Below, piece after piece: positions 30,928 to 33,988 of a stretch of DNA of 37,655 nucleotides. The stretch comes from an uncultured Desulfobacterium sp. (lineage in GTDB: Bacteria; Desulfobacterota; DSM-4660; Desulfatiglandales; Desulfatiglandaceae): contig LT984854.1 in assembly GCA_900258555.1 (NCBI GenBank), forward strand, positions 2,562,083 through 2,599,737. The letters are read 5' to 3'. How positions within the stretch are numbered: the stretch's first letter is position 1; every line of letters starts with the position of its first letter. The notes beneath the pieces were generated by a model, which was given only the letters and a program-made list of their open reading frames with translations, was not told the DNA's origin and did no database searches. The translations under genes and the position numbers were made by a program.

Positions 30928-30966
30928 TTAGAAAAACTTCTAAGACGGGCTTAGAAGTTTTTCTAA
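30928..30966. terminator. Perfect 17-bp hairpin after mlaC
   Basis: TTAGAAAAACTTCTAAG (30928-30944) and its exact reverse complement (30950-30966) are separated by ACGGG. The stem is AT-rich and contains T-rich 3' sequence (GTTTTTCTAA), so it could end the mla transcript. There is no further T tract, so termination efficiency is uncertain. The symmetry allows it to act in both directions, but no minus-strand gene needs it. Confidence 0.55.
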
Positions 30967-31050: not shown

Positions 31051-31066
31051 TGGCACAAATGATGCT
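31051..31066 (+). promoter_or_regulatory. Sigma-54 (RpoN) -24/-12 promoter of the usp-tauE cluster
   Basis: TGGCAC (31051-31056), five bases and ATGCT (31062-31066) match the sigma-54 pattern TGGCAC-N5-TTGCA with the invariant GG and GC ten bases apart. The predicted start of RNA is about 60 bases before the usp gene. Sigma-54 promoters need an activator ATPase. No activator gene or obvious enhancer site is seen nearby. Confidence 0.55.
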
Positions 31067-31138
31067 TTATGAGCTTGAAAAGCCGGCATCACGGCATGAA
31101 TACTTTATTAAAGTAAAAATAAATCATGGGAGGTGCTT

Positions 31139-31552
31139 ATGAAGATATTGGTTGCAATGGATGATTCCGACTTTGCAAGACACGCTCTCGACGAGGCGAT
31201 CAAATTAGCAAAGCATGAATCTTCAGAGCTCGTTATCATGACTGTCATACCCCATATGGGCGTCATAGATGAACTCCCGGCAGGTTTTGTTGAAAAGCTG
31301 AAAAAGGCCGGGAAAAAGATACTTACACAGGCCTCAAAAACGGCGGAGGAGCACGGCATAAAGACCACAGAGATTCTGGAAGAAGGATTGGCCCCTGCGG
31401 ATAATATCATCACCTGCGCAGAAGAATATAAGGTCAAGCTTATAGTAATGGGTCATAAGGGCATGAATGCCAAGATGGAAAGGTTCTTCCTCGGCAGTGT
31501 CGCATTCAGGGTGATCTCTCACGCACCCTGCTCGGTTATGATAGTCAAATGA
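31139..31552 (+). CDS. UspA-family universal stress protein
   Basis: This 137-residue cytoplasmic protein is a single Usp domain. MKILVAMDDSDFARHALDEA begins the fold, and the ATP-binding pattern G-2x-G-9x-G(S/T) is present in MGHKGMNAKMERFFLGSVA, so it is probably the nucleotide-binding type. The start is the ATG at 31139, with GGGAGG just upstream; a GTG at 31133 lies inside that site. It is first in a same-strand row with a 99-aa membrane protein, a TauE/SafE permease and a DUF4881 lipoprotein, behind a sigma-54-type promoter. Confidence 0.92.
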   Translation: MKILVAMDDSDFARHALDEAIKLAKHESSELVIMTVIPHMGVIDELPAGFVEKLKKAGKKILTQASKTAEEHGIKTTEILEEGLAPADNIITCAEEYKVKLIVMGHKGMNAKMERFFLGSVAFRVISHAPCSVMIVK

Positions 31553-31637
31553 ATAGCGCGCTAAAATGAAGGATGAGATTATTAATGTATAAACGTCCCA
31601 AGACATCTTTTAAACGTAGCTAACATGAGGAGAGATT

Positions 31638-31937
31638 ATGTTGATTAACAAGCTGAAATTGTTATGCGGATTGATCGGAATGATTGCCGCCCTGTGGCCG
31701 GGATTCCTCCTGGCCGCAGGGGAAAAGGCTGCGGCTATCGTAATTGTTGCGGACACCCGAGGGCTCACAGGGCTGATGAAGTGGTGGGGGAGTCTTTACA
31801 ATGAAAGCCATGCCTGGTTTTCAGCGCTCACAGTGGTGTTGATACCCATAATCGGAGTTTTGTTTGGCGTAGTGGCTGATTTAATAATGTCCCACATGGG
31901 TATTGATCTCAAATCACGAGAACTGGCTGAGCATTAA
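31638..31937 (+). CDS. 99-aa membrane protein next to TauE
   Basis: This 99-residue protein has an N-terminal hydrophobic segment (about 8-27, possibly a signal anchor), a short middle part VADTRGLTGLMKWWGSLYNE and a second helix ALTVVLIPIIGVLFGVVADL ending in GIDLKSRELAEH. From memory it resembles short membrane proteins encoded beside TauE permeases in sulfate reducers; I cannot verify this here. The DTRxLTG...WxxLYN and GIDLKSRxxxEH motifs look conserved rather than random. It lies 49 bases before tauE, with a GAGGAGAG ribosome binding site. It may be an accessory subunit of the permease. Confidence 0.75.
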   Translation: MLINKLKLLCGLIGMIAALWPGFLLAAGEKAAAIVIVADTRGLTGLMKWWGSLYNESHAWFSALTVVLIPIIGVLFGVVADLIMSHMGIDLKSRELAEH

Positions 31938-31986
31938 TTCGAACTCAACAGGGACAGACCTGTTACAGCGCACAAGGAGGTAATTT

Positions 31987-33039
31987 ATGGATTGGTTGTA
32001 TGTACATATGCCGATCGCAGGGGTGGATATTTTCTGGCCCGGATTAATTATCCTGGGGATCGGCGTCGGAATTATAGGCGGGTTTTTTGGAATGGGCGGT
32101 GCGTGGATGGTCACACCCGGGTTGAATATCCTGGGCTTTCCCATGGCCTTTGCCATTGGAACGGATATTGCCCATATGGCGGGCAAATCCCTCATTGCAA
32201 CCATGCGACACGGAAAATTCGGTAATGTAGATTACAGGCTCGGTCTGATAATGCTGATCGGAACGGTGGTAGGCTTTGAGGTGGGAGCTCAGATGGTGAT
32301 GTGGCTTGAACGCCTGGGCAATGTTGATCTGGTCGTACGTTATCTGTATCTCATTCTCTTGGCGGCCATTGCCCTTTTGGTGTTTACGGATGTCGCCAAA
32401 AAGAGACGAAAAGAGCAGGAAGCGAAAAAGGCAGGTGTAGAGGATGACAAGCTAGCCACCGGAATTGAATGGCACAAGACTTTGCACAAGATCAAGATCC
32501 CCCCGATGATCAATTTCAAGGAGGCAGGGATTTACTGTTCTGCATGGTTGCCGATTTTTATAAGCTTCCTTACCGGATGGCTGGCAGGAATCTTAGGAAT
32601 CGGAGGCGGCCTTATCCGGATGCCCGCCCTGATATATCTGGTCGGCTGCCCGACCCACGTGGCAGTTGGTACAGACCTGTTTGAGGTAATGATCTCGGGT
32701 CTTTATGGCGCTGCTACCTACACATTTAAAGGACGCACCGAACTGGTCGCGGCCATCATCATGTTGGTAGGCGCCTCTATCGGGGCTCAGGTAGGAACAG
32801 TCGCAACCAAATACATAAAGGGATACGGCATTCGTATAGCATTCGGCTGCGCAGTCATCGGATGCGCCTTGTCAATAATCCTGAAACTGCTTGCCAAGGG
32901 CATGCCGAAATACCAGGCGATTTTTGATAACACCTCTACCGCACTTATCCTTGGACTTGTAAGTGCGATGTCCTTATACATCTTTTTCCAGATGATCAAA
33001 GGCGCAAAGAAAGAAATCGCCGACAGAAAGGCGAAATAG
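31987..33039 (+). CDS. TauE/SafE-family (sulfite/sulfoacetate exporter) permease
   Basis: This 350-residue inner-membrane permease has about eight to nine helices in two repeats. Each repeat has the TauE signature: GIIGGFFGMGGAWMVTPGLN in the first and LAGILGIGGGLIRMPALIYL in the second. A charged cytoplasmic loop (KKRRKEQEAKKAGVEDDK) joins them. Family members export sulfite, sulfoacetate or other organosulfonates, or take up related anions. In a putative sulfate reducer, sulfite handling is the natural guess. AAGGAGG lies upstream of the ATG. The flanking small membrane protein and lipoprotein suggest a multi-part system. Confidence 0.9.
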   Translation: MDWLYVHMPIAGVDIFWPGLIILGIGVGIIGGFFGMGGAWMVTPGLNILGFPMAFAIGTDIAHMAGKSLIATMRHGKFGNVDYRLGLIMLIGTVVGFEVGAQMVMWLERLGNVDLVVRYLYLILLAAIALLVFTDVAKKRRKEQEAKKAGVEDDKLATGIEWHKTLHKIKIPPMINFKEAGIYCSAWLPIFISFLTGWLAGILGIGGGLIRMPALIYLVGCPTHVAVGTDLFEVMISGLYGAATYTFKGRTELVAAIIMLVGASIGAQVGTVATKYIKGYGIRIAFGCAVIGCALSIILKLLAKGMPKYQAIFDNTSTALILGLVSAMSLYIFFQMIKGAKKEIADRKAK

Positions 33040-33069
33040 GCTCATTTACATATTCAGGAGGGGTGACCT

Positions 33070-33672
33070 ATGCTCAAAAAATATTCAATTTTAATCAGCC
33101 TCATGTTTGTCTTTATCCTCATAGGATGTGGAGACTACGGCAATGTAGACCAGGGAAGGGTAATCGCCTATGACAAGGCCAACAAAACAATGACCATAAT
33201 TCTGGACAAGAGTTTAGATCGCAAGAAGCCGGATTACAGCCTCTTGCCCGCGGTGGAATATAAGCTGCCGGATGATCCGAATGAGATGGGACCTGAACCA
33301 AAACCAGGGAGGCTTATGAAGCTTGACCTGGATAAGAAAGAACTCTTGGTCTACAACGCGGAACAGAAAGACCTTATGACCATAGCTTTTACACTAGTGG
33401 AACAGAAAAATGTTCCTGCAAGCGATCCTTTGGTTTTTGACAAGTCTGCGAATAAGCCCAAGTCATTTCCCATTATTGATAACCAGAAAAAGACAATAAC
33501 TACATATCTTGGCAAGCTCAAGACCCTTGTGACATTCACTGTCCCGGAACAATACGCGGCCATGCCTTCAGATACATGGACATTTGGGGATGAGGTAAGG
33601 ATATACTACAAAGAGCAAGGAAAATCCCTCAGGCTGATGAACGTCAGCCAGACGGACATCTTTAAAAAGTAA
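33070..33672 (+). CDS. DUF4881 lipoprotein
   Basis: This 200-residue protein begins with a lipoprotein signal: MLKKYSILISLMFVFILIGC, with C20 as the lipid anchor. The mature part is beta-rich: DQGRVIAYDKANKTMTIILD, a repeat-like GRLMKLDLDKKELLVYN, and the end WTFGDEVRIYYKEQGKSLR. It matches DUF4881, a group I associate with sulfate-reducing bacteria. Its task is unknown; binding the TauE substrate or a metal in the periplasm is possible. AGGAGG precedes the ATG and it lies 30 bases after tauE. Confidence 0.8.
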   Translation: MLKKYSILISLMFVFILIGCGDYGNVDQGRVIAYDKANKTMTIILDKSLDRKKPDYSLLPAVEYKLPDDPNEMGPEPKPGRLMKLDLDKKELLVYNAEQKDLMTIAFTLVEQKNVPASDPLVFDKSANKPKSFPIIDNQKKTITTYLGKLKTLVTFTVPEQYAAMPSDTWTFGDEVRIYYKEQGKSLRLMNVSQTDIFKK

Positions 33673-33711
33673 CATATTTTTTTAATGCTGCACCGGTAGG
33701 GTCCACCTAGA

Positions 33712-33747
33712 CCCCCGTCATGGGGGGCGATTCGCGGATCGCCCCCC
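33712..33747 (+). promoter_or_regulatory. Competing hairpins after the DUF4881 gene
   Basis: The G tract at 33722-33727 can pair with CCCCC upstream (33712-33716) or, as part of a 10-bp stem GGGGGGCGAT (33722-33731), with ATCGCCCCCC downstream (33738-33747). The strong downstream stem is followed by A's, not T's, so it is not a classical plus-strand terminator. The mutually exclusive pairing could regulate expression of the 68-aa gene 34 bases further on, or simply protect the upstream mRNA end. Confidence 0.4.
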
Positions 33748-33781
33748 AAAAAACTATAAATCAGGAAATGGGGTGTATATT

Positions 33782-33988
33782 ATGAGCTGGAATCAAAAAT
33801 TGGTCGTGATTATTACGGATATCCTGCTGATTTTGGAACTATGCATAAGTATGTATCTGGCAAGCAGGACCACCCCTGAACTTTTGACTCCGGTATTTAT
33901 GAAGAGCTTCTTTCTGATGTGCATTCCCACCCTGGTGATTGCCTGGGTGAGTGTAAGACGACTGCGCAGGCAAAATGAAACGATCTGA
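33782..33988 (+). CDS. 68-aa membrane protein at the end of the usp-tauE cluster
   Basis: This 68-residue protein starts MSWNQKLVVIITDILLILEL and has two membrane helices (about 7-28 and 42-58) and a basic, arginine-rich end (RRLRRQNETI). I do not recognise the family. I chose the ATG at 33782 because GGGG lies about eight bases upstream; an in-frame GTG at 33773 is less likely. It follows the DUF4881 gene by 109 bases that contain the competing hairpins, and is the last plus-strand gene before a minus-strand block. Confidence 0.6.
   Translation: MSWNQKLVVIITDILLILELCISMYLASRTTPELLTPVFMKSFFLMCIPTLVIAWVSVRRLRRQNETI

Follow-up and report, generated by a model that had tools for sequence, protein, structure and literature searches.

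The Operon and Its Promoter

The window analyzed here is a stretch of 37,655 nucleotides from the 5.4-Mb genome of an uncultured Desulfobacterium sp. (G000:C1:2562083-2599737). It contains a sigma-54 (−24/−12) promoter at 31051-31066 and, downstream of it, five genes that appear to form an operon built around a TauE-type transporter. All five genes lie on the + strand, with gaps of 85, 49, 30, and 109 nt between them, and a purine-rich ribosome-binding sequence precedes each.

The first gene, usp (31139-31552), encodes a universal stress protein of 137 residues that matches PF00582 (97 bits, E 2e-27). The second (31638-31937) encodes a protein of 99 residues that belongs to the DVU0150 family (NCBIfam NF040783, 121 bits, equivalog cut-off 70); the protein starts with a signal or anchor whose end reads AxA and also has a short VADTR-containing loop, a single strong transmembrane segment by hydropathy (residues 66-84), and a conserved GIDLKSRELAEH tail. 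The third (31987-33039) specifies the TSUP (TauE/SafE) transporter, with 350 residues, of which 20-296 match PF01925 at 149 bits (cut-off 32.6). It is followed by the gene for a DUF4881 lipoprotein of 200 residues (33070-33672; PF16222, 219 bits, cut-off 27), which is hydrophobic from residue 2 to 20 and has a lipobox cysteine, Cys20, that is invariant in 30 long-form sequences. The last gene (33782-33988) encodes a 68-residue membrane protein with two hydrophobic helices, a member of a conserved family that has no Pfam entry. TauE of this type, DUF4881, and DVU0150 are each present in one copy in the window genome.

The promoter, TGGCACAAATGATGCT on the + strand, reads TGGCAC-N5-ATGCT and departs at one position from TGGCACN5TTGCW. 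Its GG (31052-31053) and GC (31064-31065) are separated by ten bases, which is the correct spacing, and 72 bases separate its end from the usp ATG. The first-pass annotation, which had recognized a sigma-54-type site with this spacing just upstream of usp, was right about its nature and place but put the distance at about 60 bases. Within the window alone the site is not significant: a pattern scan gives 2 matches at ≤1 mismatch, and the 16 at ≤2 mismatches compare with 18.6 expected. The comparative evidence is of a different order. With a score set by hand from the consensus published for sigma-54 (maximum 12.5, with GG and GC obligatory), the upstream regions of 66 of 117 distinct related operons reach ≥9.5, where 1.0 would be expected from first-order Markov copies and the reverse strand yields 5; 42 of them reach ≥11, against 0.1 expected. 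One further genome of the same genus, G064, was available for comparison; in it, a 25-base block that contains the promoter, ACTGTGGCACAAATGATGCTTTAT, is identical, while the flanking upstream sequence has diverged. It is because of this comparative scoring and footprint, and not the window statistics, that the site is judged significant and a chance −24/−12 match is ruled out.

The window genome encodes sigma-54 (rpoN) and about 48 proteins with the activator AAA+ domain, the last three matches being weak. A second match to the sigma-54 DNA-binding domain, split across two frames at C1:725140-727060, could be a second rpoN that is broken, or a pair of gene fragments.

A Candidate Activator Site

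Upstream of the promoter lie two palindromes, TTAGAAAAACTTCTAA and TTAGAAGTTTTTCTAA, 23 bp apart at 30928-30966 (no strand is assigned). Both are of the form TTAGAA-N4-TTCTAA; the first ends 107 bp and the second 84 bp before the −24 box. The pair occurs only once in the window genome, and both arms persist unchanged in G064, whose upstream gene is a different one and is divergent. That retention also leads us to reject, as the main role of this inverted repeat, termination of the upstream MlaC gene. The geometry of the pair is that expected of an enhancer site, and conservation and position together make it a probable binding site for an activator.

Relatives have another palindrome, TTTACA-N3-TGTAAA, in the corresponding place. 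In most loci that have it, the distance from its end to the −24 box is 103-108 bp; this holds, at 0-1 mismatch, for 15 distinct regions with a sigma-54 site, and in other regions the palindrome lies nearby, at 95, 137, or 189 bp. At ≤2 mismatches it is found in 25 of the 117 upstream regions, against 2.3 expected. That the window and G064 have TTAGAA-N4-TTCTAA in place of this motif suggests a takeover of the operon by a different activator. An adjacent GAFSEA-type activator gene, as in a DVU0151-type regulon, was sought, and no activator gene of any kind adjoins the window operon, which must be served by one of the many activators encoded elsewhere in the genome.

Conservation of the Unit

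The unit was followed through 395 genomes drawn evenly from the phylum, with the family cut-offs applied, and through 114 distinct loci, for which the gene calls are mechanical and a few merged frames hide TauE; some of the related loci come from metagenome bins, a number of which bear names that are in doubt. DUF4881 exceeds its cut-off in 52 of the 395 genomes and DVU0150 in 72, and 51 of the 52 genomes with DUF4881 also have DVU0150. DVU0150, TauE, and DUF4881 are consecutive in 99 of the 114 loci, and a profile search places the 68-residue protein's gene after DUF4881 in 61. A search with the single window sequence found homologues of this protein at or near the same place in 33 of 58 sequences (the window and 57 fetched loci, one of which is a second copy of the window's own). 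The usp gene, directly upstream in 43 of the 114 loci, is an optional member of the operon, and the exact five-gene order of the window recurs in 11. The first-pass annotation had staked its proposal of one sigma-54-regulated unit on the co-occurrence of the three partner genes with TauE in other genomes. They do co-occur, and the conserved order, together with the upstream sites, supports a single unit that would be co-transcribed.

The transporter itself is strongly conserved. Across the phylum, the TauE proteins of nearly all the other operons of its kind are 61-82% identical to the window protein (47% in one outlier operon), and the operon-type proteins form one clade in a tree; identity to the other TauE proteins of the window genome is about 30%. 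A structure model of TauE (mean predicted local distance difference test, pLDDT, 74) has no significant match in the PDB; BacA ranks at a probability of 0.97 but with E 0.12.

DUF4881 occurs in two forms. A short form of about 110 residues, lacking the middle of the long form, occupies the same place in a second group of operons. A profile built from the long form alone recovers it from 5,359 reading frames at E 4e-13 to 1.5e-5, and all of these matches are the genes in that position. The short form, seen at several loci in the range L096-L130, was previously unrecognized. The model of the window protein is a confident all-beta structure (pLDDT 89) for which Foldseek gives no match at E ≤ 0.001; a second look gave only middling matches to oligonucleotide/oligosaccharide-binding (OB) barrels, such as CusF (Z 7.7), ModE/ModG, and RPA, which may reflect a common arrangement. 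As modeled, the long form resembles a small beta barrel into which a beta domain has been inserted. Because the structural matches are insignificant or middling, assignment of a function from the fold was set aside. Searches of the sequences of solved structures with TauE and DUF4881 gave nothing useful, and a literature search found no papers naming DUF4881. From the sequences, it is plausible that the DVU0150-family protein is a partner of the permease and that the lipoprotein is a periplasmic part, as had been suggested at first.

Other elements accompany the operon. Between the DUF4881 gene and the last gene, at 33721-33749 (+), lies a strong hairpin, GGGGGGCGAT-TCGCGG-ATCGCCCCCC. It was rejected as a canonical terminator, since no T-run follows it. 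An equivalent hairpin with changed arms stands at the same place in G064 (L106 2483), and the GGGGCGA...TCGCCCC sequence looks more like a dispersed, repeat-type palindrome. A family of membrane proteins of about 265 residues without a Pfam match (p267; for example, L087 9258-10061) often ends the operon and is found at 61 of 80 named loci; it was not found adjoining the window operon. In some Desulfovibrionaceae (L186, L188, L199, and L215; confirmed by Pfam in L186 only) the operon is followed by a gene for a subunit of about 630 residues resembling those of NADH:quinone oxidoreductase and Mrp antiporters.

Signaling Neighbors and History of the Operon

In two sets of loci, 33 of 57 and 49 of 80 have near the operon a gene for a protein of about 870 residues with PPDK_N and PEP-utilizers domains (Pfam), in the company of genes for kinases and response regulators. 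Of 78 such PPDK-like proteins, 76 retain a GHMA-like histidine motif. In G064 the gene directly follows that of the 68-residue protein, but in the window genome the closest homologue (80% identical over 659 residues) is at C4:359959, away from the operon. It thus seems that either the partner or the operon has moved away from the other. The window genome also has further clusters in which a TauE gene is found with a response regulator, a PPDK/PEP-utilizer protein, and a histidine kinase, at C1:267000-286000 (L139) and C1:670000-686000 (L140).

Within the window's class the operon is sparsely distributed, with DUF4881 in only 2 of 85 genomes and DVU0150 in 5 of 85. A tree of TauE places the window and G064 together with Desulfocicer, Desulfosudis, and one more Desulfobacteraceae record (approximate likelihood-ratio support, SH-aLRT, 99), while two order-mates of the window are found among the operons with short DUF4881 and a third lies on a separate deep branch. 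The tree and the patchy distribution fit horizontal gain; loss of the operon from related genomes may instead account for them.

Relation to Known Systems

The unit was thought at first not to have been described as such. In D. vulgaris, however, DVU0150-DVU0146 is listed as the sigma-54-dependent target operon of DVU0151, an activator with the GAFSEA motif, and is assigned to "transmembrane transport" (Table 1, 2015; PMC4641369), though it was not analyzed there as a machine. The family of the 99-residue protein is named after DVU0150, and both operons share the sigma-54 promoter and the assignment to transport. The likeness is drawn through loci of Nitratidesulfovibrio and its relatives, in which an adjacent, divergent GAFSEA activator gene is followed by DVU0150, TauE (78-79% identical to that of the window), and DUF4881, and which for that reason represent the same system as DVU0150-DVU0146. 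Given the published listing and these matching loci, both the unit and its control by sigma-54 had been predicted before for Desulfovibrionales, and the window operon is a member outside that order. It differs from DVU0150-DVU0146 in having usp as its first gene, no adjoining divergent activator, and different upstream palindromes.

The "nitrate cluster" DVU0251-DVU0245 of D. vulgaris and D. alaskensis, in which insertions in the TauE, regulator, and PPDK genes lead to growth in 100 mM nitrate (PMC4001038), resembles relatives of the window operon in joining a TauE-family gene to a response regulator, a histidine kinase, and a PPDK/PEP-utilizer protein. Its transporter belongs to another TSUP subfamily, DVU0150, DUF4881, and 68-residue partners are not reported for it, and the clusters L139 and L140 of the window genome are of its type.

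Substrate and Direction of Transport

Clues to the substrate come from genes adjoining the operon in relatives. At L203 and L205 the operon is directly preceded, on its own strand, by a cysD-type gene and by cysNC, which has GTPase and adenosine 5′-phosphosulfate (APS) kinase domains; downstream of it, an ATP-binding cassette (ABC) protein and two sulfotransferases are encoded. A SulP permease with a STAS domain is encoded downstream in L115, which comes from a genome in the same order as the window. A carrier of the PHO4/PiT family, the Pfam family that also holds CysP, is downstream in L107, L108, and L130, as is the anion porin Porin_O_P in L126. The dsrA gene is present in the window genome and in 67 of the 72 genomes with DVU0150, against 187 of all 395 (Fisher p 2e-19, phylogeny ignored); the five exceptions include four genomes that are 62-80% complete.

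These observations are consistent with a TSUP transporter of several parts, under the control of an activator, that moves sulfate or a closely related sulfur oxyanion such as thiosulfate or sulfite and is probably an importer. We hold this interpretation, in which co-transcription, assembly into a complex, substrate, and direction are all predicted from sequence, with no more than moderate confidence. Sigma-54 RNA polymerase would transcribe the five genes as one operon from the site at 31051 once a bacterial enhancer-binding protein, most likely bound at the palindromes about 85-125 bp upstream, is activated by its signal. TauE would form the core of a secondary transporter, with the 99- and 68-residue proteins as small membrane partners, the DUF4881 lipoprotein outside the inner membrane, and Usp in the cytoplasm. 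Upon activation of the enhancer-binding protein, sulfate or the related oxyanion would then cross the inner membrane, probably inward.

Several points weigh against sulfate uptake. The cysDNC context is that of one lineage, represented by two rumen assemblies of the same sequence that are possibly mis-binned, and the SulP context is that of one genome. The dsrA association is confounded by phylogeny, and one carrier that is 100% complete, G370, is without a strong dsrA match. PiT carriers and Porin_O_P are more often tied to phosphate. Finally, the related TauE and PPDK cluster DVU0251-DVU0245 has been suggested to be a leaky transporter of thiosulfate, not of sulfate (PMC4001038).

Some of the same points allow a transporter of another anion, such as thiosulfate, phosphate or phosphite, or a carboxylate, that is controlled by the adjoining two-component and phosphoenolpyruvate (PEP)-synthase-like proteins and whose link to sulfate reducers is only phylogenetic. 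The PiT and Porin_O_P neighbors, the histidine kinase, response regulator, and PPDK_N/PEP-utilizer genes near many loci, and the thiosulfate phenotype hinted at for the DVU0251 cluster (PMC4001038) would agree with such a transporter; set against the cysDNC and SulP neighbors and the dsrA association, we regard it as credible but rather unlikely.

The first-pass annotation had favored export, and an exporter of sulfite or sulfonates would relieve the cell of toxic intermediates. The Pfam name of the family, sulfite exporter TauE/SafE, the production of sulfite by sulfate reducers, and the hint of stress given by usp all lend themselves to this idea. The TauE of Cupriavidus necator reportedly exports sulfite in taurine catabolism; it is likened to the window TauE by the PF01925 family only, and taurine-catabolism genes and partners are not found at the window operon. 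The family name rests on few characterized members, and the operon's neighbors are genes of uptake and activation (cysDNC, SulP), not of sulfonate catabolism. To our knowledge, CysZ of Corynebacterium glutamicum has no DVU0150, DUF4881, or 68-residue partners. That TSUP protein is a sulfate transporter (discussed in PMC5840216), so that the family includes an importer, and it is likened to the window operon, by genomic context only, in sulfate uptake and in a link to sulfate activation. Because of the neighboring genes, including those for PiT and Porin_O_P, the dsrA enrichment, and the strong conservation of TauE, uptake of sulfate or another oxyanion is favored, and export appears improbable.

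A device for signaling or membrane stress, in which TauE would be a sensor feeding a kinase/PPDK relay and not a carrier, might draw on the dense signaling neighborhood, the GHMA-type motif, and the unusually strong conservation of the operon-type TauE, but it is very improbable, since the signaling genes do not adjoin the window operon and vary in place and orientation elsewhere, and we know of no precedent for TSUP sensors.

Dissimilatory sulfate reduction begins with the uptake of sulfate. Sulfate reducers have TSUP proteins in abundance, yet for most of these no function has been assigned (PMC5840216). More tentatively than for the window operon itself, and with considerable doubt, we suggest that a sigma-54-regulated, multi-component TSUP uptake system, with a TauE core, DVU0150 and 68-residue subunits, a DUF4881 lipoprotein, and an activator joined in many species by PEP-synthase-like control, may be a hitherto unassigned transporter of sulfate in many of the dissimilatory sulfate reducers and may have been transferred to other bacteria. 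The operon offers a compact, highly conserved candidate for that step, with its own regulation and its own partner families, NF040783, PF16222, and the unnamed family of the 68-residue protein.

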